Source of the DNA: a virus
Strand: one strand, 5' to 3'
Length of the DNA stretch: 56,729 bases
IMG/VR virus record: IMGVR_UViG_3300031885_000016
Location: 1-56,729 of that record
Shown here: positions 1 through 21,018 of the stretch, one piece after another
Layout of the letters: each line of letters begins with the position of its first letter
Numbering within the stretch: the first letter of the stretch is position 1
Position numbers and translations under genes: made by a program
Notes under the pieces: generated by a model
What the model was told of the DNA's origin: nothing
The model's input: only the letters and a program-made list of their open reading frames with translations
Databases searched by the model: none

Positions 1-41
1 CGGAAGTCTTGATCGCCAATGGTTTTGGTTACGACGCCTAG
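1..41 (+). CDS. 3' end of an unidentified gene
   Basis: Only the last twelve codons are in the window (ending ...NGFGYDA). The stop TAG at 39-41 overlaps the first base of a GTT-box, the same arrangement that ends most genes in this region, and that is the main reason to believe the frame. Function cannot be judged. Confidence 0.5.
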   Translation, partial: EVLIANGFGYDA

Positions 42-55
42 TTTAGTTGTACATT
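41..55 (+). promoter_or_regulatory. GTT-box 1, upstream of tRNA-Lys
   Basis: Exact GTTTAGTTGTACATT. Its first G completes the TAG stop of the upstream gene, and the tRNA 5' end lies 8 nt after the box. As this copy precedes a tRNA, it cannot be a translation signal only. Confidence 0.75.
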
Positions 56-63
56 AGGCGTTT

Positions 64-136
64 GACCTCGTAGCTCAGTCGGTAGAGCAACGGACTTTTA
101 ATCCGTGGGTCGTGAGTTCAAGTCTCACCGGGGTCA
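64..136 (+). tRNA. tRNA-Lys (anticodon TTT)
   Basis: A complete 73-nt cloverleaf is visible. The acceptor GACCTCG pairs with CGGGGTC (one G-T pair), the D stem GCTC/GAGC is intact, and the anticodon stem ACGGA/TCCGT encloses the 7-base loop CTTTTAA with anticodon TTT. The T arm carries GTTCAAG. The discriminator base is A at 136. CCA is not encoded, so maturation needs a CCA-adding enzyme; one is encoded at 33619-35148. It is followed closely by a 49-aa gene, and the pair is duplicated at 3561-3835. Confidence 0.95.
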
Positions 137-150
137 CTTAGGAGAAAACA

Positions 151-300
151 ATGAGTTTCTTTACATATTGCGAAAAGGTTTCTGGTTTTCTGGGGATTAA
201 GTTGGTGCTGGACAACATTCATGTTATCCATCGCAACTGGGCGCAGAACAAAACTGTTGGGGAGACTGCTGAGGCACTTCGCACTAAGAACAAAGTTTAG
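151..300 (+). CDS. 49-aa protein downstream of tRNA-Lys, paralogue of 3668-3835
   Basis: Starts at ATG 151 after AGGAGAAAACA. The first 36 residues are nearly identical to the 55-aa product at 3668-3835, while the C-termini differ, so tRNA and gene were duplicated as a unit. It contains an FFTYCEKVSGFLGIKLVL segment of mixed hydrophobic and polar character that may be a short amphipathic or membrane-associated helix. No known family recognised. The TAG stop lies inside the next GTT-box. Confidence 0.7.
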   Translation: MSFFTYCEKVSGFLGIKLVLDNIHVIHRNWAQNKTVGETAEALRTKNKV

Positions 301-309
301 TTGTACATT
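295..309 (+). promoter_or_regulatory. GTT-box 2
   Basis: Exact consensus. Its internal TAG stops the 49-aa gene; ATG 320 follows after a 10-nt leader containing GGAGG (short-leader class). Confidence 0.75.
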
Positions 310-319
310 GGAGGGCAGG

Positions 320-541
320 ATGAGCAACTACTTCTTGAAACTTTGGGTGACTAGTGATCTTACTTATCAAGTCGCCAATCTTGAAACGGCTGAGACAGCC
401 GAATTTACTGACATTGAAAAGGTGTTAGAATTTTGTGGCGTGGCATTGAACCGATTTAAGTCGGTGGGTTGGGATGGTTACAGGATGGTTCAAGAAAAGA
501 TCGGGGAGAATAGCTGGTGGGTGTTGCCTTATCTTGGTTAG
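320..541 (+). CDS. hypothetical protein, 73 aa
   Basis: ATG 320 is chosen because GGAGG lies just upstream and directly after the GTT-box; a longer in-frame extension to 221 would run backwards through the box and the previous gene. The product begins MSNYFLKLWVTSDLTYQV and is rich in aromatic residues at both ends. No family recognised. Its TAG overlaps the next box. Confidence 0.75.
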   Translation: MSNYFLKLWVTSDLTYQVANLETAETAEFTDIEKVLEFCGVALNRFKSVGWDGYRMVQEKIGENSWWVLPYLG

Positions 542-555
542 TTTAGTTGTACATT
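541..555 (+). promoter_or_regulatory. GTT-box 3
   Basis: Exact consensus; its first G completes the TAG of the 73-aa gene. ATG 567 follows after 11 nt with GGAGG. Confidence 0.75.
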
Positions 556-566
556 GGAGGTATACC

Positions 567-824
567 ATGAGCATTAAAGTTCAAAACATTCCGACGTTGT
601 ATAAGCCACGGGGTGCGGTGTCATTGCCAGACAATCGAGATTGGACGAATCGTTTTGAGATTCGATCTGAGACATCTGATCGGATTTATATTATCGCCCA
701 GCACATTAACCATCGGCACTGGGGATGTTCCTGCCCGGCATGGAAGATTCGACGATCTTGCAAGCATTTGAAAACAGTGGGTTTGCCTACTGGGGAAGTT
801 CCTTATGAAGTCAATCTTAAATAA
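567..824 (+). CDS. SWIM-type zinc-finger protein, 85 aa
   Basis: Residues about 52-67 read GCSCPAWKIRRSCKHL, matching the SWIM zinc-finger pattern CxC-x(n)-CxH. SWIM fingers bind DNA or protein partners in helicases, transposases and MEKK1-like proteins; small free-standing versions occur in phages. The start at ATG 567 follows GGAGG and the box. The 42-aa membrane gene starts inside its 3' end, indicating translational coupling. The metal site is seen in the sequence; its partner is unknown. Confidence 0.8.
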   Translation: MSIKVQNIPTLYKPRGAVSLPDNRDWTNRFEIRSETSDRIYIIAQHINHRHWGCSCPAWKIRRSCKHLKTVGLPTGEVPYEVNLK

Positions 825-933
825 GATTTTCAATCTGGATGCTGATCCACAAGATTTGAATCTTCAATTCATGTTGGCGATGGCAATATGCATCCTGACC
901 CCTATGGGGATACTGTTTTATTTTTTTGGATAG
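805..933 (+). CDS. small membrane protein, 42 aa
   Basis: The ATG at 805 lies inside the preceding gene, with GGGGAAG just upstream. The product begins MKSILNKIFNLD and ends in one strongly hydrophobic segment (about residues 22-42, containing AMAICILTPMGILFYFF). It is probably a single-pass inner-membrane peptide, of the type phages use to alter the host envelope or host proteins. No family recognised. Confidence 0.6.
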   Translation: MKSILNKIFNLDADPQDLNLQFMLAMAICILTPMGILFYFFG

Positions 934-942
934 GGGGCCAAT

Positions 943-1122
943 ATGACTAATGAAGAACTGCTTAGAGCGATTCGAGAAAACAGAGAGAAGCTAGAGCTTC
1001 TTGTGCAGGCAATGGAACGACATAAGAAACGCCGGTGGTGGAATCAGTTGGTTCAATACCTATCCATATTGCTTGGAATTATTGTTGGTCAATTGGCGTT
1101 CAAGTTCTGGATGGCTAGTTAA
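943..1122 (+). CDS. small coiled-coil/membrane protein, 59 aa
   Basis: ATG 943 follows a G-rich site (GGGGGCC) nine bases after the previous stop. Residues 1-32 form a charged helix (NEELLRAIRENREKLELL), then a basic RRWW patch, then one hydrophobic segment (about 38-57). This suggests a cytoplasmic helix tethered by a C-terminal membrane anchor. Its TAA stop is inside GTT-box 4. No family recognised. Confidence 0.65.
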   Translation: MTNEELLRAIRENREKLELLVQAMERHKKRRWWNQLVQYLSILLGIIVGQLAFKFWMAS

Positions 1123-1132
1123 GTTGTACATT
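1118..1132 (+). promoter_or_regulatory. GTT-box 4 (GTTAAG variant)
   Basis: GTTAAGTTGTACATT; here the variant bases create a TAA stop for the upstream gene. ATG 1142 follows after 9 nt. Confidence 0.75.
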
Positions 1133-1141
1133 GGAGCATTC

Positions 1142-1456: not shown

Positions 1457-1761
1457 TTAAAGCCAAGATTCATTCTGACGATTATGTGTTTGAATATGAA
1501 TTTGACGGCACACCTTGGTTCAAAGAGGCCAGCTTAGAGGATTTGCATCGGTTGTATGCTGAGGGCTGGTGTAGTTGCATTGAAGCCGATCAAGTGGCAA
1601 TTGAGGCCAGTAATGGTCCTATGACCGAAGAAACCGAGAATATCAAATTCCTTATTGATTACTGCCAGCGTAAAGGCGAGGGATTTGAGGTTGAGATTGA
1701 TGAGTTATCGGTTTTGGGTTGGCTTAAGTCTAACCGTCCTGATGTCTTGCTAGAAGTTTAG
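1453..1761 (+). CDS. hypothetical acidic protein, 102 aa
   Basis: The start overlaps the J-protein stop, so the two genes are probably translationally coupled and may act together. The sequence is acidic (IHSDDYVFEYEFDGTPWF, later EVEIDELSVLGWL) with no recognised motif. It may be a partner or client adaptor of the J protein; this is inferred from coupling only. Confidence 0.75.
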   Translation: MIKAKIHSDDYVFEYEFDGTPWFKEASLEDLHRLYAEGWCSCIEADQVAIEASNGPMTEETENIKFLIDYCQRKGEGFEVEIDELSVLGWLKSNRPDVLLEV

Positions 1762-1770
1762 TTGTACATT
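1756..1770 (+). promoter_or_regulatory. GTT-box 5
   Basis: Exact consensus; TAG inside the box stops the 102-aa gene. The leader to ATG 1805 is 34 nt (long class). Confidence 0.75.
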
Positions 1771-1804: not shown

Positions 1805-2221
1805 ATGAGCTATGACAACGATCATCGGGTGCGGGCTGGGCGTAGAACTAAGCGATTGGAAGTCCAAGGCAACCAGTTAGTTGGTTGGGTTACTTCAGAC
1901 GATGAGGATGAGGTTCTTGTCGAATTTCCTTTGAAGTATGAGGCATGTCCGACTTGTCAAGGTCGTGGGAAGCATACCAATCCATCTATTGACAGTCATG
2001 GGTTATCTGCTGAGGATTTTGCGGAAGATCCAGATTTTCTCCAAGATTATTTCAGCGGTGTGTATGACGTAGCTTGTTATGAGTGTGGTGGTCGAACTAC
2101 GGTGGCTGTTGTGGATGAGGCTCGTGCCAATCCAGAACAATTGGCTTTGTGGCACGCTCAAGAGCAATGGGATCGGGAGTATGAGGCCGAATGTGCGGCT
2201 GAGCGTCGTTTCGGGTATTAG
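1805..2221 (+). CDS. zinc-ribbon protein with CxxCxGxG-type motif, 138 aa
   Basis: ATG 1805 has AAGGAGAAAATC upstream. Residues around 50-57 read CPTCQGRGK and around 93-97 CYECGG, forming two CxxC knuckles like half of a DnaJ-type zinc centre. Between them lies NPSIDSHGLSAEDF, a stretch common in unnamed phage zinc proteins. The C-terminus is charged. It probably binds zinc; the cellular role is unknown. The neighbouring J-domain gene makes a shared chaperone role conceivable but unproven. Confidence 0.75.
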   Translation: MSYDNDHRVRAGRRTKRLEVQGNQLVGWVTSDDEDEVLVEFPLKYEACPTCQGRGKHTNPSIDSHGLSAEDFAEDPDFLQDYFSGVYDVACYECGGRTTVAVVDEARANPEQLALWHAQEQWDREYEAECAAERRFGY

Positions 2222-2235
2222 TTTAGTTGTACATT
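2221..2235 (+). promoter_or_regulatory. GTT-box 6
   Basis: Exact consensus; completes TAG of the zinc-ribbon gene. 24-nt leader with AAGGGAG to ATG 2260. Confidence 0.75.
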
Positions 2236-2981: not shown

Positions 2982-2996
2982 GTTTAGTTGTACATT
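2982..2996 (+). promoter_or_regulatory. GTT-box 7
   Basis: Exact consensus, three bases after the TGA stop and therefore not used as a stop. 21-nt leader to ATG 3018. Confidence 0.75.
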
Positions 2997-3389: not shown

Positions 3390-3546
3390 TCCGATTTCAA
3401 AAAAGCAGATTGAACAATTGCGAGAGCAAGTGAAGTTGCAGGCGGCTTATATTCGGTTTCTGGAGCAAGGATTGTCTGCTGCTCAAGATAAAGAGTTTAA
3501 TCGCAAGGTCGAAGCTGGAGAGCTTGATTACGCTAAGGGCTGCTAG
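3379..3546 (+). CDS. small coiled-coil protein, 55 aa
   Basis: ATG 3379 overlaps the upstream gene and is preceded by GGAGGTGTGG. Residues 6-45 form a predicted coiled coil (KQIEQLREQVKLQAAYIRFL). It may oligomerise or bind the 123-aa partner with which it is coupled. The TAG is completed by GTT-box 8. Confidence 0.65.
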   Translation: MKIDPISKKQIEQLREQVKLQAAYIRFLEQGLSAAQDKEFNRKVEAGELDYAKGC

Positions 3547-3560
3547 TTTAGTTGTACACT
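3546..3560 (+). promoter_or_regulatory. GTT-box 8, abutting the second tRNA
   Basis: GTTTAGTTGTACACT. The mature 5' end of the interrupted tRNA is the very next base (3561). If the box is a promoter, transcription must start at or inside its 3' end; if it is a processing site, cleavage would be at its edge. Confidence 0.75.
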
Positions 3561-3654
3561 GACCTCGTAGCTCAGTTGGTAGAGCAACGGACTTCCGCTG
3601 TTGAAACAGCATGAATTAATCCGTGGGTCGTGAGTTCAAGTCTCACCGGGGTCA
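3561..3654 (+). tRNA. interrupted tRNA-Lys copy with a 21-nt insertion in the anticodon loop
   Basis: Outside the anticodon loop this copy matches the tRNA-Lys at 64-136 almost base for base, including intact acceptor, D, T and anticodon stems. The loop CTTTTAA is split between bases 34 and 35 of the tRNA by CCGCTGTTGAAACAGCATGAA, which contains a 5-bp hairpin GCTGT-TGAA-ACAGC. The placement is unique (no sliding alternative). Bacterial tRNA introns are normally self-splicing group I introns, which are far larger, and no bulge-helix-bulge is evident. It may be a non-decoding tRNA-like RNA, a dead copy, or an RNA needing unusual splicing. Confidence 0.7.
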
Positions 3655-3667
3655 CTAGGAGAAAACA

Positions 3668-3835: not shown

Positions 3836-4017
3836 AAGACGCTTTAATTATGGGTGGTGCAGTTCTTGGTGTGCTGTGCCTGATTGCCTTAGTGGTATCA
3901 GTGGTTATTGCGATCTTTCCTTTCTTGGTTGCAATTGCTGGTGTCGTTATCATATGGAGAATTGTCCTTTGTGTGATAAGTGGCACGCCGTTTTTTACTG
4001 GGAAGTTGCCGTGGTAG
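3832..4017 (+). CDS. small membrane protein, 61 aa
   Basis: ATG 3832, after CAGGAGAAAGT. Almost all of residues 5-52 are hydrophobic (GGAVLGVLCLIALVVSVVIA, then FPFLVAIAGVVIIWRIVL), giving two closely spaced membrane helices. Translationally coupled to the 55-aa gene. A holin is one possibility for a two-helix small protein, but it sits away from any lysis gene, so this remains open. Confidence 0.7.
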   Translation: MKDALIMGGAVLGVLCLIALVVSVVIAIFPFLVAIAGVVIIWRIVLCVISGTPFFTGKLPW

Positions 4018-4031
4018 TTTAGTTGTACATT
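4017..4031 (+). promoter_or_regulatory. GTT-box 9
   Basis: Exact consensus; completes TAG of the membrane gene. 40-nt leader. Confidence 0.75.
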
Positions 4032-4391: not shown

Positions 4392-4658
4392 ATGATTAGC
4401 GTAGTGTTTCGGGTGACGTTGCAGGGTAGTTATGTAATGACTAAGACGATGACCGTTCCTGTTGTCCCCCAGAAGGATGATGATGTGGTTGTGGAGAATC
4501 AGTGGTTTGTGGTTAAAAACAATCGTTTTCTAATGGAACGATCTCAAGCTTATGTGGTAGTGGTGGTCGAGATTCTACGGGAGCAGAATCAAACTAAGCT
4601 TGTGTTGGAGGACAATGGTTGGGTACGAGAAGATACGTTGGAACCTGATGATGTTTAG
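4392..4658 (+). CDS. hypothetical protein, 88 aa
   Basis: One of the few genes in region 1 without its own GTT-box; 68 bp separate it from the gene above. ATG 4392 has AAAGGGGAGACTG, a strong ribosome site. The product is valine-rich and beta-like (MTKTMTVPVVPQKDDDVVVE, AYVVVVVEIL). No family recognised. Confidence 0.75.
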   Translation: MISVVFRVTLQGSYVMTKTMTVPVVPQKDDDVVVENQWFVVKNNRFLMERSQAYVVVVVEILREQNQTKLVLEDNGWVREDTLEPDDV

Positions 4659-4667
4659 TTGTACATT
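4653..4667 (+). promoter_or_regulatory. GTT-box 10
   Basis: Exact consensus; internal TAG ends the 88-aa gene. 32-nt leader with TGTAAA seven bases after the box. Confidence 0.75.
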
Positions 4668-4699: not shown

Positions 4700-5119
4700 A
4701 TGGGAATGGGTTATGCTGCTACGCACGGTTGGATTTTGACATCTGCGGATCTCAAAAAGATATGTCCTGATGAGTTTGCGGCGGTTGAAGCTGCGTTGGA
4801 GTTGATCGAATCTGATGAAGATGGGCCATATACTCTTGCTCGATATACACAAGCCATTACTAATGGTGAGGTTATCACAGGAGTTATCGACGAAGCGATT
4901 ACTGCTTTAGCTAAGGCGTTTACCGAAAAGACCAAGGTGGGGGACAGCAAGTTGCAGATTTATCTCGGCTATTACGATGCTGATAGCGGCGATATGTATG
5001 ATGAAATTGAGAATGGGGAATACTGGGAGATTGGCGGCATGGAGGCATTGACTCCAGCCGGTGTTAAACTGAAAGAGATTAGTGATGTGGCTCATCAAGC
5101 ATGGGTTCATCTTGGATAG
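4700..5119 (+). CDS. hypothetical acidic protein, 139 aa
   Basis: ATG 4700 after AAGGGAGAAACAAAGT. Acidic, mostly helical first half (LKKICPDEFAAVEAALELIE), and a second half with alternating aromatic and acidic residues (YLGYYDADSGDMYDEIENGE). No family recognised. Its TAG is completed by GTT-box 11, after which lies the structured RNA. Confidence 0.75.
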   Translation: MGMGYAATHGWILTSADLKKICPDEFAAVEAALELIESDEDGPYTLARYTQAITNGEVITGVIDEAITALAKAFTEKTKVGDSKLQIYLGYYDADSGDMYDEIENGEYWEIGGMEALTPAGVKLKEISDVAHQAWVHLG

Positions 5120-5133
5120 TTAAGTTGTACATT
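5119..5133 (+). promoter_or_regulatory. GTT-box 11, upstream of the structured RNA
   Basis: GTTAAGTTGTACATT. The next 430 nt lack a plausible gene and end in an intrinsic terminator, so this box most likely drives a non-coding RNA. Confidence 0.75.
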
Positions 5134-5570
5134 GGTGGGTGTTGAAACAATTGTCGGCTGACCCTTACGCTTAGGGTCCATTTGATGTCGGTGTCCCAAA
5201 CCTGTGCCACAAGCTATGGGGAGGGAGCAACATCCGTTTAATCGAGCGACAAGCCCGTAATGACCTGAGCGGTCAGAGGGATTTCGATTCACTGGAGTTG
5301 GTGTCCTATTTCGTATTTCATGGATATTGAATAGGAGCAACCCGGTTTTGTTACTTGTCCGACAACAATAACTAGTCTGAGCGATGACGATAAAAGCTTG
5401 CCGTATGGGATTACGTAAAGCCCCCCTAGAACTTGGGTCAATAATCCGCTGGTCATCGTAAGACCACTAAGGCATTGTCCTGCCGGTACAGTCAAGGCAA
5501 ATAGGGCCAAAGTAAGTGAAAGCTTGTAACAGGGAGCCGAAGCAATCGCTAGGCTCCCTGACTTTGTTTT
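5134..5570 (+). ncRNA. structured non-coding RNA candidate, about 430 nt
   Basis: Between GTT-box 11 and the terminator at 5532-5570 no credible + strand reading frame exists. Local hairpins are visible: GACCCT/AGGGTC (5160-5178), TGACC/GGTCA (5261-5275), CCTATT/AATAGG (5305-5336) and GGTC/GACC (5451-5465). A module of about 110 nt occurs twice, with the blocks GGTGTCC (5190, 5300), GGAGCAAC (5224, 5334), CGACAA (5247, 5360) and CTGAGCG (5265, 5377) in the same order and near-identical spacing. This resembles large ornate phage RNAs (such as GOLLD and ROOL) in size and setting, but I do not recognise the sequence as either. Confidence 0.65.
5532..5570 (+). terminator. intrinsic terminator ending the structured RNA
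   Basis: Stem GGGAGCC/GGCTCCC (5532-5538 with 5552-5558) around a 13-nt loop, followed by the T-rich tract GACTTTGTTTT. Confidence 0.8.
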
Positions 5571-5582: not shown

Positions 5583-5597
5583 GTTTATTTGTACATT
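5583..5597 (+). promoter_or_regulatory. GTT-box 12 (GTTTAT variant)
   Basis: GTTTATTTGTACATT, following a terminator rather than a gene. 9-nt leader to ATG 5607. Confidence 0.75.
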
Positions 5598-5606: not shown

Positions 5607-5876
5607 ATGAAGCCGAATAAAATGAAAATTGCTGGCGGGGAATGGATCAAGCTACCCGACTATCCGATGGGTGGCAGACCACTTAAGCCCCGTTGCTCTA
5701 AATGCAATCGTGAATGTGAAGCTCGTTTGCATCGTATGTGGTTGTGTGCTAATTGCCCGACTACTAAAGAACAGCGGGAAAATGCCAAGCCAAAGAAAAG
5801 CAATTCGGCGGCGTTGGCGATGTTGTATGCAGCGGCAGCAATCGGTATGCCGTATATCAAGGTTGACAAAGTTTAG
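5607..5876 (+). CDS. zinc-ribbon protein, 89 aa
   Basis: ATG 5607 is preferred because it follows the box with AGGTTGG; an in-frame ATG at 5571 would place the box inside the coding region. Residues about 29-51 hold CSKCNREC and LCANC, a four-cysteine zinc ribbon. The C-terminal half is basic, then Ala-rich (SAALAMLYAAAAIGMPYI), possibly a short hydrophobic helix. Probably binds zinc and perhaps nucleic acid; not recognised further. Confidence 0.7.
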   Translation: MKPNKMKIAGGEWIKLPDYPMGGRPLKPRCSKCNRECEARLHRMWLCANCPTTKEQRENAKPKKSNSAALAMLYAAAAIGMPYIKVDKV

Positions 5877-5885
5877 TTGTACATT
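5871..5885 (+). promoter_or_regulatory. GTT-box 13
   Basis: Exact consensus; internal TAG stops the zinc-ribbon gene. 12-nt leader. Confidence 0.75.
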
Positions 5886-5897: not shown

Positions 5898-6236
5898 ATG
5901 AGCATGGGATGGCAGACTACTGAGGATGATGTGATGACGGTTCTATCCGCTCACAATATCAAGGTCACTAAAGATCGGCTAAAAGAGATCTATGAGGGAC
6001 TTGATTTGGATGCGATTGAGGATGGTGTATATTATTACACCAGCATCGACGCCCAGACCGATAGCATGTTGTGTGACATTGAAGATCAGTTGATGGAACA
6101 ATTCATCATTGTCGGCAAAGAAAAACAGTATGACGAAGCCGATGAGGATGAATTCCTTGATGAAGATGAAGATGACGAAGATGACGAAGATGACGAAGAT
6201 GATGAGCATGATTTGAATATGTCCAGCATGTGGTAG
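5898..6236 (+). CDS. acidic protein with poly-Asp/Glu tail, 112 aa
   Basis: ATG 5898 after GGGAGAATGTT. The first 80 residues are ordered-looking (VLSAHNIKVTKDRLKEIYEG). The tail (about 83-105) is nearly pure Asp/Glu, encoded by a GATGACGAA-type repeat at about 6160-6203. Acidic tails of this kind are typical of DNA mimics or of proteins that bind basic partners; the basic H1-like protein at 11195-11722 is a conceivable partner. That link is inference. Confidence 0.75.
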   Translation: MSMGWQTTEDDVMTVLSAHNIKVTKDRLKEIYEGLDLDAIEDGVYYYTSIDAQTDSMLCDIEDQLMEQFIIVGKEKQYDEADEDEFLDEDEDDEDDEDDEDDEHDLNMSSMW

Positions 6237-6250
6237 TTAAGTTGTACACT
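6236..6250 (+). promoter_or_regulatory. GTT-box 14 (GTTAAG, ACACT)
   Basis: GTTAAGTTGTACACT; completes TAG of the acidic protein gene. 9-nt leader with GGAGG. Confidence 0.75.
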
Positions 6251-6259: not shown

Positions 6260-6559
6260 ATGAAACCATTTACTGTGCCGACAATGAAAGTCAAAGTTCT
6301 GATGCTTGCATTTGGCGATCCTGGTCAGGTGCGAGAGGTTGAGGTTCCTGTTGAGTCTGAGAGCGTATTGGATGAGGTTTTCCGATATGGACAAAACGAC
6401 TTTCAGCCGCAGAGATGTCCTAGTGTGAGCAAAGGAGATGTGATCGAATACAACGGTCATCATTTGGTTGCCAGCTTTGGATTCAAGGAGTTATCTGAGG
6501 AGCAGTTGCAGGAATATACTGCAATGGATAGACGAGATCGTTACTTCTATGAAGTTTAG
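6260..6559 (+). CDS. hypothetical protein, 99 aa
   Basis: ATG 6260 after GGAGGATAC. Beta-rich start (MKPFTVPTMKVKVLMLAFGD), then a phrase VSKGDVIEYNGHHLVASFGF typical of a small barrel-like domain, and a helical C-terminus. No family recognised. Confidence 0.75.
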   Translation: MKPFTVPTMKVKVLMLAFGDPGQVREVEVPVESESVLDEVFRYGQNDFQPQRCPSVSKGDVIEYNGHHLVASFGFKELSEEQLQEYTAMDRRDRYFYEV

Positions 6560-6568
6560 TTGTACATT
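6554..6568 (+). promoter_or_regulatory. GTT-box 15
   Basis: Exact consensus; internal TAG. 39-nt leader to ATG 6608. Confidence 0.75.
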
Positions 6569-7214: not shown

Positions 7215-7266
7215 GGCTCCCCCAACCGAATTCTCCCGATTCGGTTGGGGTTGAGCCTCTTTTTTT
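7215..7266 (+). terminator. intrinsic terminator
   Basis: Stem CCCCAACCGAAT/ATTCGGTTGGGG (about 7220-7250), extended by GGCTC/GAGCC, then a run of T from 7258. Confidence 0.9.
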
Positions 7267-7270
7267 GGAA

Positions 7271-7285
7271 GTTAATTTGTACATT
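7271..7285 (+). promoter_or_regulatory. GTT-box 16 (GTTAAT variant)
   Basis: GTTAATTTGTACATT directly after a terminator, so expression of the next gene must restart here. 39-nt leader. Confidence 0.8.
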
Positions 7286-7324: not shown

Positions 7325-7729
7325 ATGTATCGCTATCGTTGTGAAGGTCATACGACTTGGAACGCTCGCAAGAATTTCAATCGTGTAGGTGTTCTGGGTA
7401 AGATCAAGCGAGTGAAGGGTTATCGTTTCACTTCATGCCGCAAGAACAACAGCAATCAACCTGTTCAGCATGAATACGTGTTGGTGGTGGGGGAGAATGG
7501 TTCTTGTCGTTTCAGTGGTTTGTGTTGGGGTTATGGTGGTGAAGGTCCGAGCGGGCTGTGTGAGTTGCTCAAGATGTTGGGCATCGAGGGCAACATGGCA
7601 GCGAACATTGCCTATGACTCGTACCGTGGTCAAGCTGACGGGACTGATTGGGAACTTAAGTTCCGTGAAGGGCAATTCAGCTATATGAATGGGAATTGGA
7701 CAAGCTATCACGAATGGCAAGCCGCCTAG
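7325..7729 (+). CDS. hypothetical protein, 134 aa
   Basis: ATG 7325 after CAGGGAGCCAATC. Basic N-terminus (MYRYRCEGHTTWNARKNFNR), then a Gly/Trp-rich segment (RFSGLCWGYGGEGPSGLCEL) and a helical end. No family recognised. Its TAG is completed by the next box. Confidence 0.75.
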   Translation: MYRYRCEGHTTWNARKNFNRVGVLGKIKRVKGYRFTSCRKNNSNQPVQHEYVLVVGENGSCRFSGLCWGYGGEGPSGLCELLKMLGIEGNMAANIAYDSYRGQADGTDWELKFREGQFSYMNGNWTSYHEWQAA

Positions 7730-7743
7730 TTTAGTTGTACATT
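7729..7743 (+). promoter_or_regulatory. GTT-box 17
   Basis: Exact consensus; completes TAG. 38-nt leader with GTGTAAC eight bases on. Confidence 0.75.
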
Positions 7744-8180: not shown

Positions 8181-8195
8181 GTTTAGTTGTACATT
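8181..8195 (+). promoter_or_regulatory. GTT-box 18
   Basis: Exact consensus, three bases after the TGA. 36-nt leader with GAGTGTAAC. Confidence 0.75.
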
Positions 8196-8231: not shown

Positions 8232-8486
8232 ATGGGACGTTCGACTACTCCGACCTATCGTTTGCGGATTGATGGCACAAGTCTGATCTGGCGTGGCAAA
8301 GCTACGCAGAAACGGCTTGAGGAATACGTCATGCAATATGGCAAGTCATTGGAGCTTGGTGGTGCCAATGAGCATATCTCCAAGAGCTTAGGATATATTC
8401 CTTATCCGAATAAGGCTATCTTGATTCGTCAGTCTACCAATGAAGTCGTCGCAACTTGGCAGGCGGCTATGTTTCAAGTGTGGTAG
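8232..8486 (+). CDS. hypothetical protein, 84 aa
   Basis: ATG 8232 after AAGGGAGAAATC. The N-terminus TPTYRLRIDGTSLIWRGKAT suggests a beta hairpin; a helix follows (QKRLEEYVMQYGKSLELG). No family recognised. Confidence 0.75.
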   Translation: MGRSTTPTYRLRIDGTSLIWRGKATQKRLEEYVMQYGKSLELGGANEHISKSLGYIPYPNKAILIRQSTNEVVATWQAAMFQVW

Positions 8487-12583: not shown

Positions 12584-12592
12584 TTGTACATT
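12578..12592 (+). promoter_or_regulatory. GTT-box 30
   Basis: Exact consensus; internal TAG. 49-nt leader that also holds a second partial copy (AGTACATTGGAG) just before ATG 12642. Confidence 0.75.
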
Positions 12593-12641: not shown

Positions 12642-13055
12642 ATGGAACAAATCATTGTCGTCGTAATCATGAACAACGTGGTAAATGATTGCAAGTTGTT
12701 TGATGATGTGAAGCTGGCTGAGCAGGAGTTCATTGAAGCGGTTAAGCTGCGATTGTGGCGTGGCGATAATGTTAATGATATGGAATCATACCTTGAAGAT
12801 GGGTATTATCCATTCGAGGATGGATCGGTGTGTATTACGCACCCCCAACCTTGCAGCAAACGGCTAGTGCAATGCTCGTGGGAAACGTATTGTACGAAGG
12901 ATCGTGTTGTCCCTGTTGCCGATTACGATGAACGGGTGAAAGTTACATTGACAGCCAATACTACCGAACATTATTTAGACGGTGTTCTGGTGGCAAGAGC
13001 CAGTTATTACAATGGGGCTGAGCCCATCTATGAATTGGCTCAGTACCTAGTTTAG
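12642..13055 (+). CDS. hypothetical protein, 137 aa
   Basis: ATG 12642 after TTGGAGCAAAT, inside a leader that looks like a long-class leader fused to a short-class one. Sequence: hydrophobic start (MEQIIVVVIMNNVVNDCKLF), four cysteines spread through the middle (VCITHPQPC...VQCSWETYC), strand-rich end. No family recognised. Confidence 0.75.
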   Translation: MEQIIVVVIMNNVVNDCKLFDDVKLAEQEFIEAVKLRLWRGDNVNDMESYLEDGYYPFEDGSVCITHPQPCSKRLVQCSWETYCTKDRVVPVADYDERVKVTLTANTTEHYLDGVLVARASYYNGAEPIYELAQYLV

Positions 13056-13064
13056 TTGTACATT
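13050..13064 (+). promoter_or_regulatory. GTT-box 31
   Basis: Exact consensus; completes TAG. 39-nt leader with GGGCTGTAAC. Confidence 0.75.
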
Positions 13065-13655: not shown

Positions 13656-13659
13656 GATT

Positions 13660-13689
13660 CTCCCCCCGAAAGGGGGGAGCTTTCTTTTC
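13660..13689 (+). terminator. intrinsic terminator
   Basis: CTCCCCCC/GGGGGGAG with GAAA loop, then CTTTCTTTTC. Confidence 0.9.
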
Positions 13690-13702: not shown

Positions 13703-13717
13703 GTTAATTTGTACATT
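13703..13717 (+). promoter_or_regulatory. GTT-box 32 (GTTAAT)
   Basis: Post-terminator GTTAATTTGTACATT; 36-nt leader with GGGTTGTAAC. Confidence 0.8.
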
Positions 13718-13753: not shown

Positions 13754-14005
13754 ATGAGTGTTGAATTTGAGCCGTCTGCATTGAAGTTGCAACTCCAAGC
13801 CGCTCTAGGATTGAGCGATGATGATTTTGGTTATCATGCGACGGATTTATACGTGCTGGACAAGCCCGGCGTAATGGACTGGTTGAAAAAGAACTACGGT
13901 AGTTTCCGCAGCATCAAGCGGTTCATCGGCAATGCTGGACACCCGACTTTTGGGGGCAAACCTGCCCTGGATATTCCCTTCGCTGGAATTTGGAAGAAGG
14001 TTTAG
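13754..14005 (+). CDS. hypothetical protein, 83 aa
   Basis: ATG 13754 after AAGGGGAAAAATC. Helical N-terminus (FEPSALKLQLQAALGLSDDD), then LDKPGVMDWLKKNYGSFRSI. No family recognised. Internal TAG of the next box stops it. Confidence 0.75.
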   Translation: MSVEFEPSALKLQLQAALGLSDDDFGYHATDLYVLDKPGVMDWLKKNYGSFRSIKRFIGNAGHPTFGGKPALDIPFAGIWKKV

Positions 14006-14014
14006 TTGTACATT
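14000..14014 (+). promoter_or_regulatory. GTT-box 33
   Basis: Exact consensus; internal TAG. 33-nt leader. Confidence 0.75.
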
Positions 14015-14047: not shown

Positions 14048-14254
14048 ATGATGAAAGTTTTTGTTGTGTGCCAAGGTGAGAGCGGAGAGGGAGCGGGGCC
14101 TATTGCGGTGTTCAGCACAAAACGCAAGGCAAAGGCATTCATCAAACGAGATCATCCTGAATTTAAAGATCCTGTTGAAGGATTGGACAATACATGGACC
14201 AGCGATAAATTCGGCGTAGACCTCATCAGCATTCAAGAGTTCGAAGTAGTTTAG
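14048..14254 (+). CDS. hypothetical protein, 68 aa
   Basis: ATG 14048 or 14051 after AAGGAGAGA; the second gives better spacing. Beta-alpha start (MKVFVVCQGESGEGAGPIAV) with AVFSTKRKAKAFIKRDHPEF. No family recognised. Confidence 0.75.
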   Translation: MMKVFVVCQGESGEGAGPIAVFSTKRKAKAFIKRDHPEFKDPVEGLDNTWTSDKFGVDLISIQEFEVV

Positions 14255-14263
14255 TTGTACATA
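14249..14263 (+). promoter_or_regulatory. GTT-box 34 (ACATA ending)
   Basis: GTTTAGTTGTACATA, the only copy seen ending in ATA. Completes TAG; 11-nt leader. Confidence 0.7.
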
Positions 14264-14274: not shown

Positions 14275-14397
14275 ATGGTAATGATTTTTGTTTGTGTGGC
14301 TCTTGCTTATGCTGGAGCCCCTAATTGGGTGTGGTGGTTGGCAGTTGGCTATACGGTACTTTGCTTTCTGGCTCAATCGCAAGAAAGTGGAGTTTAG
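14275..14397 (+). CDS. small membrane peptide, 40 aa
   Basis: ATG 14275 after AGGGGACAACAG. Nearly all residues are hydrophobic (MVMIFVCVALAYAGAPNWVW...), with one or two membrane helices and a short polar tail ESGV. Framed by boxes on both sides, TAG inside the next one. No family recognised. Confidence 0.65.
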   Translation: MVMIFVCVALAYAGAPNWVWWLAVGYTVLCFLAQSQESGV

Positions 14398-14406
14398 TTG
14401 TACATT
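14392..14406 (+). promoter_or_regulatory. GTT-box 35
   Basis: Exact consensus; internal TAG. 11-nt leader with AGGAG. Confidence 0.75.
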
Positions 14407-14560: not shown

Positions 14561-14575
14561 GTTTAGTTGTACATT
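14561..14575 (+). promoter_or_regulatory. GTT-box 36
   Basis: Exact consensus, 17 bases after the TAA. 37-nt leader with CAGTGTAACC. Confidence 0.75.
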
Positions 14576-14612: not shown

Positions 14613-14945
14613 ATGAAAGCCTACATCTATCAAGCTGACATCTACTGCGAAGATTGTATGAAGGATATGCCGCACCCCGAAGATCAATCGTCCTACGATA
14701 GCGACGAATATCCTAAAGGGCCGTTTGCTGATGGTGGGGGAAGTGCCGATAGCCCACAACATTGCGGCAATCATGGGGATTGTGTCAACGCAATTACTCT
14801 TAGCGACGGCACTAAGATTGGCGTATGGCTGGAGAATCCCTTGACCAATGAAGGGGTCGAATACGTCCGAGATCATATCGCAGAAGAACCAGACAACGAA
14901 GTTGTGAAATTGTGGGCTGAGTGGTACGCCGATGACCTAGTTTAG
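14613..14945 (+). CDS. zinc-binding phage protein, 110 aa
   Basis: ATG 14613 after AGAGGAAACGTG. The pattern YCEDC (about 11-15), then SYDSDEYPKGPFADGGGSAD and HCGNHGDCVNA, is a recurrent arrangement in unnamed phage and plasmid proteins: CxxC plus HCxxHxxC gives a likely zinc site. C-terminal helix and acidic end. Family function is unknown to me. Confidence 0.75.
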   Translation: MKAYIYQADIYCEDCMKDMPHPEDQSSYDSDEYPKGPFADGGGSADSPQHCGNHGDCVNAITLSDGTKIGVWLENPLTNEGVEYVRDHIAEEPDNEVVKLWAEWYADDLV

Positions 14946-14954
14946 TTGTACATT
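14940..14954 (+). promoter_or_regulatory. GTT-box 37
   Basis: Exact consensus; completes TAG. 9-nt leader (AGAGGCTAT). Confidence 0.75.
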
Positions 14955-15128: not shown

Positions 15129-15310
15129 AAATCATTCGATATGCAATTGTGAGAATTGAGATTGAAGCTGTGGACGTGGGGACTGACCCTGACGAAGCGG
15201 CACAACGGGTTATCGACAATTGCGAATATGCTTTCGTCTATGACGATGGATTAGTCAAAGTTGTGGACACTGAGATTTTGGATTGCAGTGAGGATCACCC
15301 GCTAGTTTAG
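15125..15310 (+). CDS. hypothetical protein, 61 aa
   Basis: ATG 15125 overlaps the upstream stop (CAATGAAA) with AAGAGAGCATC as ribosome site. Acidic, beta-alpha-beta look (YAIVRIEIEAVDVGTDPDEA). No family recognised. Confidence 0.7.
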   Translation: MKIIRYAIVRIEIEAVDVGTDPDEAAQRVIDNCEYAFVYDDGLVKVVDTEILDCSEDHPLV

Positions 15311-15319
15311 TTGTACATT
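15305..15319 (+). promoter_or_regulatory. GTT-box 38
   Basis: Exact consensus; internal TAG. 41-nt leader with GGCTGTAAC. Confidence 0.75.
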
Positions 15320-15757: not shown

Positions 15758-15772
15758 GTTAATTTGTACATT
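15758..15772 (+). promoter_or_regulatory. GTT-box 39 (GTTAAT)
   Basis: Post-terminator GTTAATTTGTACATT; 37-nt leader with GGGTGTAACC. Confidence 0.8.
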
Positions 15773-15809: not shown

Positions 15810-16013
15810 ATGATTATCCGAATCAGTGAGGAAGAGTATGCGGAACTGTCTGAGGAAAATGGTGGCTATTGCCTCGCTTGTGGCGAAGTCGCTTATGGGG
15901 TCGAACCAGACGCAAGGAAGTACACTTGTGAGTCATGTGATTCACCCAGCGTTTACGGCATCGAAGAATTGCTAATCATGGGCAAAATCGAGTTCGGAGA
16001 ATCCGACGACTAG
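15810..16013 (+). CDS. zinc-ribbon protein, 67 aa
   Basis: ATG 15810 after AAAGGTGCAAA. CLACG (about 21-25) and CESC (about 40-43) form a rubredoxin-like zinc ribbon, preceded by ISEEEYAELSEENGGY and followed by YGIEELLIMGKIEFGE. This compact layout is common among unnamed phage proteins. Role unknown. Confidence 0.8.
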   Translation: MIIRISEEEYAELSEENGGYCLACGEVAYGVEPDARKYTCESCDSPSVYGIEELLIMGKIEFGESDD

Positions 16014-16027
16014 TTTAGTTGTACATT
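16013..16027 (+). promoter_or_regulatory. GTT-box 40
   Basis: Exact consensus; completes TAG. 43-nt leader. Confidence 0.75.
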
Positions 16028-16410: not shown

Positions 16411-16440
16411 GAAAAGGCCCCTTCGGGGGCCTTTTCTATT
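16411..16440 (+). terminator. intrinsic terminator
   Basis: GAAAAGGCCCC-TTCG-GGGGCCTTTTC, a perfect UUCG-capped stem with flanking A and T tracts. Confidence 0.92.
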
Positions 16441-16454: not shown

Positions 16455-16469
16455 GTTAATTTGTACATT
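16455..16469 (+). promoter_or_regulatory. GTT-box 41 (GTTAAT)
   Basis: Post-terminator box; 38-nt leader with GAGTGTAACC. Confidence 0.8.
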
Positions 16470-16507: not shown

Positions 16508-16687
16508 ATGCTAATTGATTGTGATCGTGAGACTTACGGCAAGTTCATCCGTAGCTTGCAGAATGCTACCGATAAGCCGACAAGCTGCACAACCTTCAGC
16601 GTCATGCAAACCAGTGTCAATGGCAAACTAGTGGCTCAGGCAATCTACAACCATGCTATGCCACCTCGATACCAAATCGAAGCCTAG
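16508..16687 (+). CDS. hypothetical protein, 59 aa
   Basis: ATG 16508 after AGGACAAGAGCC. Short mixed fold (LIDCDRETYGKFIRSLQNAT; FSVMQTSVNGKLVAQAIYNH). No family recognised. Confidence 0.7.
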   Translation: MLIDCDRETYGKFIRSLQNATDKPTSCTTFSVMQTSVNGKLVAQAIYNHAMPPRYQIEA

Positions 16688-16701
16688 TTTAGTTGTACAT
16701 T
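16687..16701 (+). promoter_or_regulatory. GTT-box 42
   Basis: Exact consensus; completes TAG. 37-nt leader with GGATGTAAC. Confidence 0.75.
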
Positions 16702-17057: not shown

Positions 17058-17072
17058 GTTAATTTGTACATT
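17058..17072 (+). promoter_or_regulatory. GTT-box 43 (GTTAAT)
   Basis: Post-terminator box; 36-nt leader with GAATGTAACC. Confidence 0.8.
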
Positions 17073-17108: not shown

Positions 17109-17303
17109 ATGAACAGATTTCTCAAAAATTATCAGGTTAGACCGGGTCGCACTGTGCAAGTGGATCATATGGTCCAAACATTCACTATTGAGATTCGGTC
17201 GCTCAGCGGTGCCGATCAAGCCACCATCAAACGGCTCCTGCAAGCCAAATACGAAGTGCTTGATGTGCAACCAGCCGGATACCGAGTGATCGCCGAAGTT
17301 TAG
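17109..17303 (+). CDS. hypothetical protein, 64 aa
   Basis: ATG 17109; CCCGAGACAACA upstream is a poor ribosome site. Basic N-terminus (MNRFLKNYQVRPGRTVQVDH), then a beta-alpha-beta core (FTIEIRSLSGADQATIKRLL). No family recognised. Confidence 0.7.
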   Translation: MNRFLKNYQVRPGRTVQVDHMVQTFTIEIRSLSGADQATIKRLLQAKYEVLDVQPAGYRVIAEV

Positions 17304-17312
17304 TTGTACATT
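17298..17312 (+). promoter_or_regulatory. GTT-box 44
   Basis: Exact consensus; internal TAG. 38-nt leader with GAATGTAACC, nearly identical to that of box 43. Confidence 0.75.
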
Positions 17313-17350: not shown

Positions 17351-17698
17351 ATGAATGTTCTGCGTGATAAGTTTCCCCACCTGATTGACCTGACCCCCGA
17401 TGTGGACACAAAGGGATTCACTTACTTGGCTACAACGCCAGTCATCAAGCAACCGGGCACTTTGCCCTACCGAATTGTCCTGGTCTGTAATGGCGACCAA
17501 TTCATCGTCTACAACCAGTATTTCAACAAGTATCACGTCGATCCGCTGTCGGGCTATCTGGAAACCGCCAAGCCGTCATTCTCCGATGGCAACTACTTCG
17601 GAAATCAGCACTTACATGCGGCCTTGAAGTGCTTCGGCAATCGAGTCGCCAAGGATGCGGTCCATATCGAGAGCATCTATCGGAAAGAAACAGTGTAG
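17351..17698 (+). CDS. hypothetical protein, 115 aa
   Basis: ATG 17351 after ACGGAGAGAAAGCC. Mixed alpha/beta with many aromatic residues (DTKGFTYLATTPVIKQPGTL; FIVYNQYFNKYHVDPLSGYL). No family recognised. Confidence 0.75.
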   Translation: MNVLRDKFPHLIDLTPDVDTKGFTYLATTPVIKQPGTLPYRIVLVCNGDQFIVYNQYFNKYHVDPLSGYLETAKPSFSDGNYFGNQHLHAALKCFGNRVAKDAVHIESIYRKETV

Positions 17699-17712
17699 TT
17701 TAGTTGTACACT
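17698..17712 (+). promoter_or_regulatory. GTT-box 45 (ACACT)
   Basis: GTTTAGTTGTACACT; completes TAG. The leader reaches only a start-stop codon pair (17771-17776). Confidence 0.75.
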
Positions 17713-18077: not shown

Positions 18078-18092
18078 GTTTACTTGTACATT
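18078..18092 (+). promoter_or_regulatory. GTT-box 46 (GTTTAC)
   Basis: GTTTACTTGTACATT, the only GTTTAC copy seen. 12-nt leader with AGGAG. Confidence 0.7.
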
Positions 18093-18104: not shown

Positions 18105-18299
18105 ATGAAACTCAGTCACCTGACCGTGTATTTCGACATTCAATGGCATATGCGTGATGGACGGGGCCATTGTGTCGATGTTGATCTGCCTGACAATTCA
18201 GACGGCACTCGTGCTGGTGGCAACGATGGCACTCGTTTTTCGTCACCGGCTGAAGCCGGAAGATTTGTCGCTGATTGGCTTGTCGAACAGATTTCATAG
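18105..18299 (+). CDS. hypothetical protein, 64 aa
   Basis: ATG 18105 after TAGGAGAAGCAG. Strand-rich start (MKLSHLTVYFDIQWHMRDGR) and a C-terminal helix (PAEAGRFVADWLVEQIS). No family recognised. Confidence 0.7.
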   Translation: MKLSHLTVYFDIQWHMRDGRGHCVDVDLPDNSDGTRAGGNDGTRFSSPAEAGRFVADWLVEQIS

Positions 18300-18313
18300 T
18301 TTAGTTGTACATT
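18299..18313 (+). promoter_or_regulatory. GTT-box 47
   Basis: Exact consensus; completes TAG. 35-nt leader with GAATGTAAC. Confidence 0.75.
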
Positions 18314-18546: not shown

Positions 18547-18550
18547 TGGA

Positions 18551-18580
18551 GAGAGCCCCTTCGGGGGCTCTTTTCTTTTT
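18551..18580 (+). terminator. intrinsic terminator (module A, copy 1)
   Basis: AGAGCCCC-TTCG-GGGGCTCT then TTTCTTTTT. The sequence from here through box 48 is repeated almost exactly at 20067-20123. Confidence 0.92.
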
Positions 18581-18592: not shown

Positions 18593-18607
18593 GTTAATTT
18601 GTACATT
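18593..18607 (+). promoter_or_regulatory. GTT-box 48 (GTTAAT)
   Basis: Post-terminator box; 37-nt leader with GGATGTAAT. Confidence 0.8.
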
Positions 18608-19079: not shown

Positions 19080-19104
19080 AAAGCCCCTTCGGGGGCTTTT
19101 ACTC
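19080..19104 (+). terminator. intrinsic terminator (module B, copy 1)
   Basis: AAAGCCCC-TTCG-GGGGCTTT followed by TACTCTTATTCC. Similar to the module at 19475-19500. Confidence 0.85.
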
Positions 19105-19118: not shown

Positions 19119-19133
19119 GTTAATTTGTACATT
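19119..19133 (+). promoter_or_regulatory. GTT-box 49 (GTTAAT)
   Basis: Post-terminator box; 37-nt leader with GGGTGTAACC. Confidence 0.8.
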
Positions 19134-19470: not shown

Positions 19471-19474
19471 AGAG

Positions 19475-19500
19475 AAGCCCCTTCGGGGGCTTTTACTTTA
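19475..19500 (+). terminator. intrinsic terminator (module B, copy 2)
   Basis: AAGCCCC-TTCG-GGGGCTT followed by TTACTTTATTCC. Confidence 0.85.
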
Positions 19501-19511: not shown

Positions 19512-19526
19512 GTTAATTTGTACATT
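19512..19526 (+). promoter_or_regulatory. GTT-box 50 (GTTAAT)
   Basis: Post-terminator box; 19-nt leader with AAGGAG, an intermediate length. Confidence 0.8.
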
Positions 19527-19545: not shown

Positions 19546-19677
19546 ATGAAGAAAACCGAACACGCTGCCAAGGCCCACAATTGCTTGGGCTATCACAAAC
19601 ATCTTCGTAAGTTCGGCAAAGCACTGGCCCATCGGGCTGTCCGCAATGCACTTCGACGATTACTCAAGCAAGTTTAG
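19546..19677 (+). CDS. small very basic protein, 43 aa
   Basis: ATG 19546 after GTAAGGAGCAACC. About a third Lys/Arg/His (KKTEHAAKAHNCLGYHKHLR...), ending LRRLLKQV. Likely binds nucleic acid; no family recognised. TAG inside the next box. Confidence 0.7.
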   Translation: MKKTEHAAKAHNCLGYHKHLRKFGKALAHRAVRNALRRLLKQV

Positions 19678-19686
19678 TTGTACATT
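19672..19686 (+). promoter_or_regulatory. GTT-box 51
   Basis: Exact consensus; internal TAG. 46-nt leader with GGATATAACC. Confidence 0.75.
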
Positions 19687-20062: not shown

Positions 20063-20066
20063 TGGA

Positions 20067-20096
20067 GAGAGCCCCTTCGGGGGCTCTTTTCTTTTT
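20067..20096 (+). terminator. intrinsic terminator (module A, copy 2)
   Basis: AGAGCCCC-TTCG-GGGGCTCT then TTTCTTTTT; near-perfect copy of 18551-18580 together with its flanks. Confidence 0.92.
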
Positions 20097-20108
20097 AACT
20101 TGTGCAAA

Positions 20109-20123
20109 GTTAATTTGTACATT
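20109..20123 (+). promoter_or_regulatory. GTT-box 52 (GTTAAT)
   Basis: Post-terminator box; 36-nt leader with GAGTGTAACC. Confidence 0.8.
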
Positions 20124-20159
20124 AGGTGAGTGTAACCACAACACTCAAGGAACAAAGCC

Positions 20160-20402
20160 ATGTGTCAAATCAATCTGGGTTCGCCAATCGGAAGTGAGAA
20201 GGTTCGGGGCGGGTTCCAACCACACTGGCGTACCGTGTTCGTCTACAAGTGCAAGGCTGGTCATGTGGTCAAGGTGCGAGCCAACTCCTACCGTGGCAAA
20301 ACGGCAGTGCCAGGGGTGGGGGCCATCATGTGTCCCACTTGTGAGTTTAATGCCAAGTTCGATGCCATGATGTTTCAACCAACCCACGAACTTGCCTGCT
20401 AG
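20160..20402 (+). CDS. hypothetical protein, 80 aa
   Basis: ATG 20160 after CAAGGAACAAAGCC. Includes YKCKAGHVVKV and MCPTCEF, a likely four-ligand zinc ribbon (CxAGH and CPTC). It resembles small phage zinc-ribbon proteins that precede basic peptides. Role unknown. Confidence 0.75.
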   Translation: MCQINLGSPIGSEKVRGGFQPHWRTVFVYKCKAGHVVKVRANSYRGKTAVPGVGAIMCPTCEFNAKFDAMMFQPTHELAC

Positions 20403-20416
20403 TTAAGTTGTACATT
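20402..20416 (+). promoter_or_regulatory. GTT-box 53 (GTTAAG)
   Basis: GTTAAGTTGTACATT; completes the TAG of the 80-aa gene. 33-nt leader with GCATGTAAC. Confidence 0.75.
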
Positions 20417-20449
20417 AGAAGCATGTAACAACTAACAACGGAGCGAACC

Positions 20450-20599
20450 ATGAAGATCAAGCTCAACTGCAAAGCACAATGGGAAGTGGGACGAGGCCAC
20501 ATGGCACACCGCAGTGGCACAGGCACCCACAGTGATCGTCGCACTAAGCGACTCAACACAAGAGCCAGCCGCAACCGCAAAGCAATGGGGGAACAGTGA
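20450..20599 (+). CDS. small basic protein, 49 aa
   Basis: ATG 20450 after ACGGAGCGAACC. His/Arg/Lys-rich (HMAHRSGTGTHSDRRTKRLN), likely RNA or DNA binding; no family recognised. Its TGA lies five bases before a possible GTG start of the next frame. Confidence 0.65.
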   Translation: MKIKLNCKAQWEVGRGHMAHRSGTGTHSDRRTKRLNTRASRNRKAMGEQ

Positions 20600-20603
20600 T
20601 GAA

Positions 20604-20735
20604 GTGGGACAGTTCTGCTTGTGTCGCAAGCTGCAAGCACCAAGGCCCGAACGTATCAGTGTGGATCGTTGGCGTGCCATGCACAAGCAAGCGGCAGCCG
20701 TGGCCTATGCCAGACATGAAGAACGTTGTAGTTAA
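20604..20735 (+). CDS. possible 43-aa protein, GTG start
   Basis: The frame ends at TAA inside GTT-box 54, the usual arrangement, and gives GQFCLCRKLQAPRPERISVD..., ending YARHEERCS. The GTG at 20604 has GGGGGAA eleven bases upstream. An overlapping frame from ATG 20599 would run through the box to about 20757 and is less likely. No family recognised. Confidence 0.45.
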   Translation: MGQFCLCRKLQAPRPERISVDRWRAMHKQAAAVAYARHEERCS

Positions 20736-20745
20736 GTTGTACATT
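20731..20745 (+). promoter_or_regulatory. GTT-box 54 (GTTAAG)
   Basis: GTTAAGTTGTACATT; TAA inside. 49-nt leader. Confidence 0.75.
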
Positions 20746-20794
20746 AGTGGTATGTAAGGACAACAACTCACCCTAACGAAACGAAAGAGATACC

Positions 20795-20935
20795 ATGAAG
20801 ATTCATCGCTCGGAAGCCGAAATGATTGCTGCCATCGAACAAGAGCAACTGATTGAAGATGCTCACAACGGCCACGATGAAGCGATTGAGGACATCCTCG
20901 AACAACTCGAACTTGAACAGCGACAAGCGGCCTAG
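20795..20935 (+). CDS. small acidic helical protein, 46 aa
   Basis: ATG 20795; AAAGAGATACC upstream is a weak ribosome site. One long acidic helix (EAEMIAAIEQEQLIEDAHNG; EAIEDILEQLELEQRQAA), possibly a coiled coil or an inhibitor peptide. No family recognised. Confidence 0.65.
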   Translation: MKIHRSEAEMIAAIEQEQLIEDAHNGHDEAIEDILEQLELEQRQAA

Positions 20936-20955
20936 TGTGGTGTGGTTGGACTAGG

Positions 20956-20986
20956 GTGGCGGGGGCTAGTGGTTGGCCCCCGCCAC
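20956..20986 (+). terminator. GC-rich hairpin without T-tract
   Basis: GTGGCGGGGGC pairs with GCCCCCGCCAC around a 9-nt loop. No T-run follows, so it may stabilise mRNA or pause polymerase rather than terminate. Confidence 0.5.
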
Positions 20987-21003
20987 TCCCCATTGGGGGC
21001 CTA

Positions 21004-21018
21004 GTTTAGTTGTACATT
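21004..21018 (+). promoter_or_regulatory. GTT-box 55, last copy
   Basis: Exact consensus. It is the last copy seen; downstream sequence changes to AT-rich. Confidence 0.75.

Follow-up and report, generated by a model that had tools for sequence, protein, structure and literature searches.

Why does one short sequence, always in the same orientation, recur in front of nearly every small gene over some 21 kb of viral DNA? The stretch analyzed here (the window) is the whole 56,729-base IMG/VR record IMGVR_UViG_3300031885_000016, and the repeat, which we call the box, forms an array near its beginning. We consider it quite probable that the boxes are phage-specific promoters serving a set of small accessory genes in huge tailed phages, with RNA starting near the 3' edge of the box and a phage-encoded factor reading it. 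The observations behind this are the position and direction of the boxes, the exclusive use of a local box, abutting terminators, the ends of transfer RNA (tRNA) genes and sigma genes in three relatives, from which we infer that the boxes act as promoters, where RNA starts and what reads them.

Box array in the window

Boxes were counted on both strands of the window with the pattern GTTWANTTGTACAYW, allowing at most one mismatch. This gave 55 matches between 41 and 21018, all on the + strand, compared with a chance expectation from shuffles of 0.22 on average and 2 at most; none was found on the - strand or past 21018. An earlier sequence-only reading had reported 55 + strand copies stopping at 21.0 kb, which the count bears out. 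The identical 15-mer GTTTAGTTGTACATT accounts for 30 of the 55 copies. Written with its flank the consensus is [AT]A-GTTWANTTGTACAYT (n = 55), where positions -1 and 0 are [AT]A (A at position 0 in 53 of 55) and positions 16-21 are G-rich. The motif is slightly longer than the 15-base pair (bp) box described earlier, [AT]A-GTT[TA]A[GT]TTGTACA[TC]T followed by a G-rich hexamer (window version TAGTTTAGTTGTACATT). Many window copies also have TGTAAC at positions 23-28. Tandem boxes 18-25 bp apart were seen in two phages, at 12347-12386 in the window and near 292978-292996 (L208) in the related phage G001.

Rough gene calling finds 59 genes in the array, and 48 of them have a box 8-107 nucleotides (nt) upstream of the start codon, so that "nearly one per gene" was a fair description. 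The distance from box to start codon is variable, mostly 8-55 nt, with a separate Shine-Dalgarno sequence. Two classes can be recognized: near starts lie about 8-12 nt past the box, which the Shine-Dalgarno sequence follows immediately, and far starts lie about 33-49 nt away. TGTAAC is missing downstream of near-class boxes and of several boxes that follow terminators. The stop codon of 31 array genes overlaps the next box, as TAG at its first base or as TAG or TAA at +4 or +5.

Both window tRNAs are preceded by a box, and each is followed by a copy of a duplicated small open reading frame (ORF; 139-271 and 3656-3788, 91% identical DNA), a cassette duplication. The ORF-free stretch 5134-5582 begins at a box and ends in a terminator; like 10724-10925, which has no convincing gene, a box at its start and a terminator at its end, it holds a candidate non-coding RNA (5134-5572). 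Folding better than that of shuffled sequences (z = -2.7) was found only in 5434-5582, the last third of the ORF-free stretch, and in 10724-10873, and an Rfam scan of the window matched the tRNAs and nothing else. Features of the window are listed below; every box is a pattern match.

41..55 (+) box 1, GTTTAGTTGTACATT; 8 nt before tRNA-Lys
64..137 (+) tRNA-Lys (TTT)
295..309 (+) box, near class; ATG 10 nt after
541..555 (+) box, near class; Shine-Dalgarno GGAGG directly after
1118..1132 (+) box
1756..1770 (+) box
2221..2235 (+) box
2982..2996 (+) box
3546..3560 (+) box; tRNA-Arg starts at next base
3561..3655 (+) tRNA-Arg (CCG)
4017..4031 (+) box
4653..4667 (+) box
5119..5133 (+) box before ORF-free stretch 5134-5582
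5530..5560 (+) terminator-like hairpin with T-rich tail; precedes box 5583
5583..5597 (+) box, T variant, post-terminator; start codon 9 nt after
5871..5885 (+) box
6236..6250 (+) box
6554..6568 (+) box
7247..7259 (+) terminator; precedes box 7271
7271..7285 (+) box, T variant
7729..7743 (+) box
8181..8195 (+) box
8486..8500 (+) box
8898..8912 (+) box
9199..9213 (+) box, T variant
9704..9718 (+) box
10383..10397 (+) box
10709..10723 (+) box before structured stretch without convincing gene
10898..10925 (+) terminator; precedes box 10949
10949..10963 (+) box, T variant
11125..11139 (+) box
11744..11779 (+) strong terminator, 16-pair stem; T-run extends into box 11787
11787..11801 (+) box, post-terminator and near class; ATG 9 nt after
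12347..12361 (+) box, first of tandem pair
12372..12386 (+) box, second of tandem pair
12578..12592 (+) box
13050..13064 (+) box
13658..13679 (+) terminator; precedes box 13703
13703..13717 (+) box, T variant
14000..14014 (+) box
14249..14263 (+) box
14392..14406 (+) box
14561..14575 (+) box
14940..14954 (+) box
15305..15319 (+) box
15758..15772 (+) box, T variant, behind hairpin
16013..16027 (+) box
16415..16437 (+) terminator AGGCCCCTTCGGGGGCCTTTTCT; precedes box 16455
16455..16469 (+) box, T variant
16687..16701 (+) box
17058..17072 (+) box, T variant
17298..17312 (+) box
17698..17712 (+) box
18078..18092 (+) box
18299..18313 (+) box
18548..18575 (+) terminator; precedes box 18593
18593..18607 (+) box, T variant
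19080..19099 (+) terminator; precedes box 19119
19119..19133 (+) box, T variant
19473..19494 (+) terminator; precedes box 19512
19512..19526 (+) box, T variant
19672..19686 (+) box
20064..20091 (+) terminator; precedes box 20109
20109..20123 (+) box, T variant
20402..20416 (+) box
20731..20745 (+) box
21004..21018 (+) last box, end of array

Different boxes in related phages

The system runs through the lineage, which the earlier reading could not show, and its box changes from one phage to the next. Arrays of the same layout, each with a box of its own (TAGGTCCAGTGTACCCTAG, TTTTGGTACGGT, AATTTAATTGTATTTTTG, AGTCCAGGTGTATAAC, CTAACACCCGCTTG, TAAAGCTGTACTAA), occur in six related phage groups, one of them the uncultured 595-kb phage LR756511. 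The versions were compared after orienting the arrays by gene direction; the relatives are contigs and possibly incomplete. Copy numbers are 60 in G001 (TAGGTCCAGTGTACCCTAGTGGGTGT), 47 in G002/G003 (TTTTGGTACGGT), 20 in G005/G007 (AATTTAATTGTATTTTTGAAACG), 66 in G006 (AGTCCAGGTGTATAAC), 103 in G009/G010 (CTAACACCCGCTTG) and about 55 in LR756511 (TAAAGCTGTACTAA). In G004 the array is short, with about eight copies whose spelling is mixed (GTTAAGTTGTACATGATG and GTTAGCATGTACATAAG, for example). Most large relatives inspected have their own array, located in a locally GC-richer stretch, and no array was visible in G008 and several shorter contigs. The exact box of the window was not found in the relatives. 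In the collections it matched 87 IMG/VR contigs once each, which is about chance level, and a longer pattern matched nothing.

Each long array uses a single version and, as far as core length permits a judgement, contains essentially none of the others; the cores of G002 and G009 are short and have chance matches as well. Arrays of different phages have few genes in common. One gene family found in four of them (window 7325, G001 278797, G006 25493, G009 14015) carries the box of the local genome in each case, that is, four different boxes about 40-50 nt upstream. A repeat borne by the gene would move with it; since the box tracks the genome instead, it must match something in that genome. Spelling that is near-uniform within a phage and different between phages points to a separate transcription start code for this gene block in each phage. 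A TGTAC-like core is common to several versions, as is a GTGTAAC downstream with an A/C-rich leader after it, and because of these shared parts the array systems look homologous despite the changed recognition block. It is conceivable, and we put it forward tentatively, that the boxes are a promoter class of this lineage's own, a single block ending at the start, whose code has changed at least six times among relatives, with all copies of an array changing together. Such whole-array changes would imply a fast-evolving specificity factor in each phage.

Two further observations concern the relatives. Inverted pairs GGGTACAAATG...CTATTGTACCC at 265342, 268257 and 284464 in G001 are possibly divergent boxes or hairpins. 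In LR756511, additional AAGCTGTACAA copies lie on the opposite strand at 20-38 kb (L295), some clearly in front of genes with a Shine-Dalgarno sequence and some perhaps coding.

Terminators and host-type promoter signals

Using a simple home-made scan, we detected eight intrinsic terminators in the window array, and all eight are followed by a box 6-21 nt past the hairpin (1.3 expected by position). A box also stands behind nine of ten terminators in G001 and seven of eleven in G006 (1.4 expected in each), and the order terminator, box, gene is repeated in G004. Terminators directly before boxes suggest that the boxes restart transcription. One spelling, GTTAATTTGTACATT (the T variant), is nonrandomly placed, mainly behind hairpins or terminators: in the window a hairpin lies upstream of 9 of 14 T variants and of 3 of the 41 other boxes (p = 5e-5). 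The same association was found in G001 (p = 1.5e-4) and, more weakly, in G006 (p = 0.02).

Sigma-70-like -35/-10 sites with 16-18 bp spacing are not enriched in the array (24 versus 28.3 in shuffles), and no conserved -35 element was found upstream of the box, in agreement with the earlier remark that no -35/-10 pair is attached. Two other candidate signals were rejected. Reading TGTAAC as the -10 element and the box as the -35 does not fit about half of the post-terminator boxes of G001, which lack TGTAAC; a start-stop mini-ORF (ATG or GTG plus TAA), present after the box in many far-class copies, reads GTG TTC or GTG TCA in many G001 copies.

Where RNA would start

Start positions are numbered here from the T of the TA core. 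In three phages, a total of four tRNA genes start 3-6 nt past that core: tRNA-Arg of the window at 6, tRNA-Glu and tRNA-Ser of G002 at 3-4 and 5-6, and tRNA-Leu of LR756511 at 4. The two G002 genes lie directly behind strong terminators, so their transcripts should start at or inside the box edge. Other tRNAs start further down (tRNA-Lys of the window at 14, tRNA-Lys of G002 at 18), as does a tRNA-like sequence of G001 not called by ARAGORN (about 31). Behind window boxes 5583 and 11787, both post-terminator, the start codon is 9 nt past the box, which is 15 nt after the T. The simplest single start consistent with the tRNA ends and these close start codons is most likely about 4-7 nt after the T.

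Candidate reading factor

Sigma-like proteins are encoded by three relatives: four in G001 (180, 232, 315 and 351 amino acids), two in G004, one of them similar to the T4 late sigma factor gp55 (phrog_234), and at least three in LR756511. Searches of the relatives for T7-type RNA polymerase, including PF00940, gave no match; as the PF00940 control itself matched nowhere and is uninformative, absence of a phage polymerase from the relatives is unproven. For multisubunit polymerases, PF00562 had no match in the relatives, no DFDGD-type motif was found in G001-G016, and PF00623 (beta') gave a single sub-threshold match, in G005 (14.5 bits). According to a review, jumbo phages without their own RNA polymerase often encode sigma homologues, which probably steer the host enzyme to phage-specific promoters (PMC13282480). 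The boxes are probably read by host RNA polymerase together with a phage-encoded factor. Of the earlier proposal of a promoter read by a phage polymerase or sigma-like factor, the promoter part is strengthened by the terminators, the per-phage boxes, the tRNA ends and the lack of an attached -35/-10 signal; as to the factor, the relatives searched gave sigma genes in three phages and no phage polymerase.

Taken together, each box would be one contiguous recognition block of about 15-20 bp without a separate -35/-10 pair. A phage-encoded specificity factor, most likely a sigma factor that works with the host's RNA polymerase, would read the version of its own phage, and RNA synthesis would begin at or just past the 3' edge of the box. 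The G-rich stretch and TGTAAC would then fall in the 5' leader, followed by an A/C-rich run, the Shine-Dalgarno sequence and the start codon. Where genes are tightly packed, the preceding gene's stop codon lies within the box as well.

Weighing the explanations

Several points speak against phage-specific promoters with this start. The simplicity of the terminator scan weakens the terminator counts. No terminator separates many of the boxes from the gene before them, and for these boxes promoter activity of their own is presumed. No clear sigma factors were found in G002, G003, G005, G006, G009 and G010, contigs of uncertain completeness. The four abutting tRNAs could in principle come from read-through and RNase P. 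Some post-terminator genes of G001 have a Shine-Dalgarno sequence only from about 13 nt past the TA core, which would allow a later start for those genes and is our main reason for caution. Such a start belongs to another reading, different in start site only, in which the TA core is the -10 element of a sigma-type promoter (TACATT, TACCCT, TACGGT, TATTTT) and RNA begins about 12 nt after the T, near TGTAAC. TA and the final T are kept in several versions, the conserved TGTAAC could be the first transcribed bases, and the close-start genes behind G001 terminators keep their Shine-Dalgarno sequence at least 13 nt downstream. We regard this as rather unlikely: four tRNAs would lose their 5' ends, the window genes behind boxes 5583 and 11787 would have next to no leader, there is no -35 element, and the G009 version lacks TANNNT.

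Cutting of long array RNAs by a nuclease at the box, giving separate mRNAs and tRNA 5' ends, would suit boxes located exactly between genes and at tRNA 5' ends, most of them behind genes without a detected terminator. It is improbable given that a box lies right behind every detected terminator of the window array, where RNA would mostly not reach, and that box divergence would need a phage-specific nuclease each time. Still less probable is a recombination seam, in which the box, whether or not it is a promoter too, would provide short homology for exchanging cassettes, much as in promoter/stem-loop (PeSL) cassettes. The overlap of box and stop codon, the duplications at 139-271 and 3656-3788 and the few genes common to the arrays fit this idea, which is compatible with promoters and leaves the whole-phage consensus switch and the abutting terminators unexplained. 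A translation-start element like the Start-Associated Sequences of cluster K mycobacteriophages would also lie near start codons, in a single orientation and at non-structural genes only (PMC3203893). We give it almost no credence, as the boxes precede tRNAs, follow terminators, vary in distance and are separate from the Shine-Dalgarno sequence.

Phage lineage

The window is a fragment of an uncultured lineage of huge tailed phages. Besides tail genes (tape measure, baseplate wedge, Tail_P2_I) it encodes a tRNA nucleotidyltransferase, a Dda-like helicase and a DNA methyltransferase. IMG/VR contains 265 relatives of the baseplate wedge protein, and the contigs that carry some of them are 100-340 kb long. 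Of 50,697 phage records, LR756511 alone matches three tail-region proteins. The relatives keep the tail block collinear, and most of them have the array on the same contig, upstream of that block. Megablast against known phages returned tRNA similarity only, a GTDB genome search for a host link had no match, and no cultured relative was found in the collections searched. Between the tail genes, 54377-55378 of the window holds an insertion with a LAGLIDADG-type homing endonuclease match and a helix-turn-helix region. The G004 contig (L182) has two CRISPR-like repeat arrays (8338-8910 and 13346-13740) with repeat ACACCCCTACGCATGTAGGGAAAAC and spacers of about 35 nt.

Significance and comparison with known systems

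If the boxes are promoters as proposed, they would provide natural promoter codes that differ between close relatives, in roughly 20-100 copies each, and a direct route to the reading factor. They would show phages re-coding dozens of promoters together, a concerted change of regulator and sites, and would mark the accessory-gene block of an uncultured huge-phage lineage as a place to seek host-takeover and counter-defence genes. Promoter-factor pairs could become independent laboratory expression tools.

Promoters of T7-type single-subunit RNA polymerases are one contiguous block reaching to the start site, with specificity differing between relatives. The boxes too are one contiguous block, which may end at the start, but their sequence is unrelated and no related polymerase was detected. 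Jumbo-phage virion RNA polymerases likewise have promoters with a conserved block, which stands before many transcription units and is different in each phage. Those promoters occur in phages with multisubunit virion polymerases, and their AT-rich block is about 10 nt long with its centre near -10, whereas for the boxes no beta/beta' signature was found, several versions are GC-rich and nearly every small gene has one.

Start-Associated Sequences are also short directional repeats upstream of many non-structural genes, sometimes over the upstream stop codon (PMC3203893). The Shine-Dalgarno sequence lies inside them, 3-7 bp from the start codon, and they are nearly identical across phages (PMC3203893), unlike the boxes, which precede tRNAs, are separate from the Shine-Dalgarno sequence and depend on the phage. 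T4 middle promoters (MotA box plus -10) share with the boxes a phage-specific element in place of host promoter elements (PMC2988021); the consensus TTGTACATT has no TGCTT, and no TATAAT-like -10 lies 12 +/- 1 bp downstream. In PeSL cassettes of T4-like phages, small accessory genes are reported to be separated by a terminator and then a promoter (Arbiol 2010 and Comeau 2014, as cited in PMC4503421), an order that the boxes share where a terminator precedes them. The early promoters of T4 are sigma-70 promoters, unlike the boxes, most of which lack a stem-loop. Coupling of a stem-loop terminator to the box is found for 8 boxes in the window, 9 in G001 and most of those in G004, not for most others.

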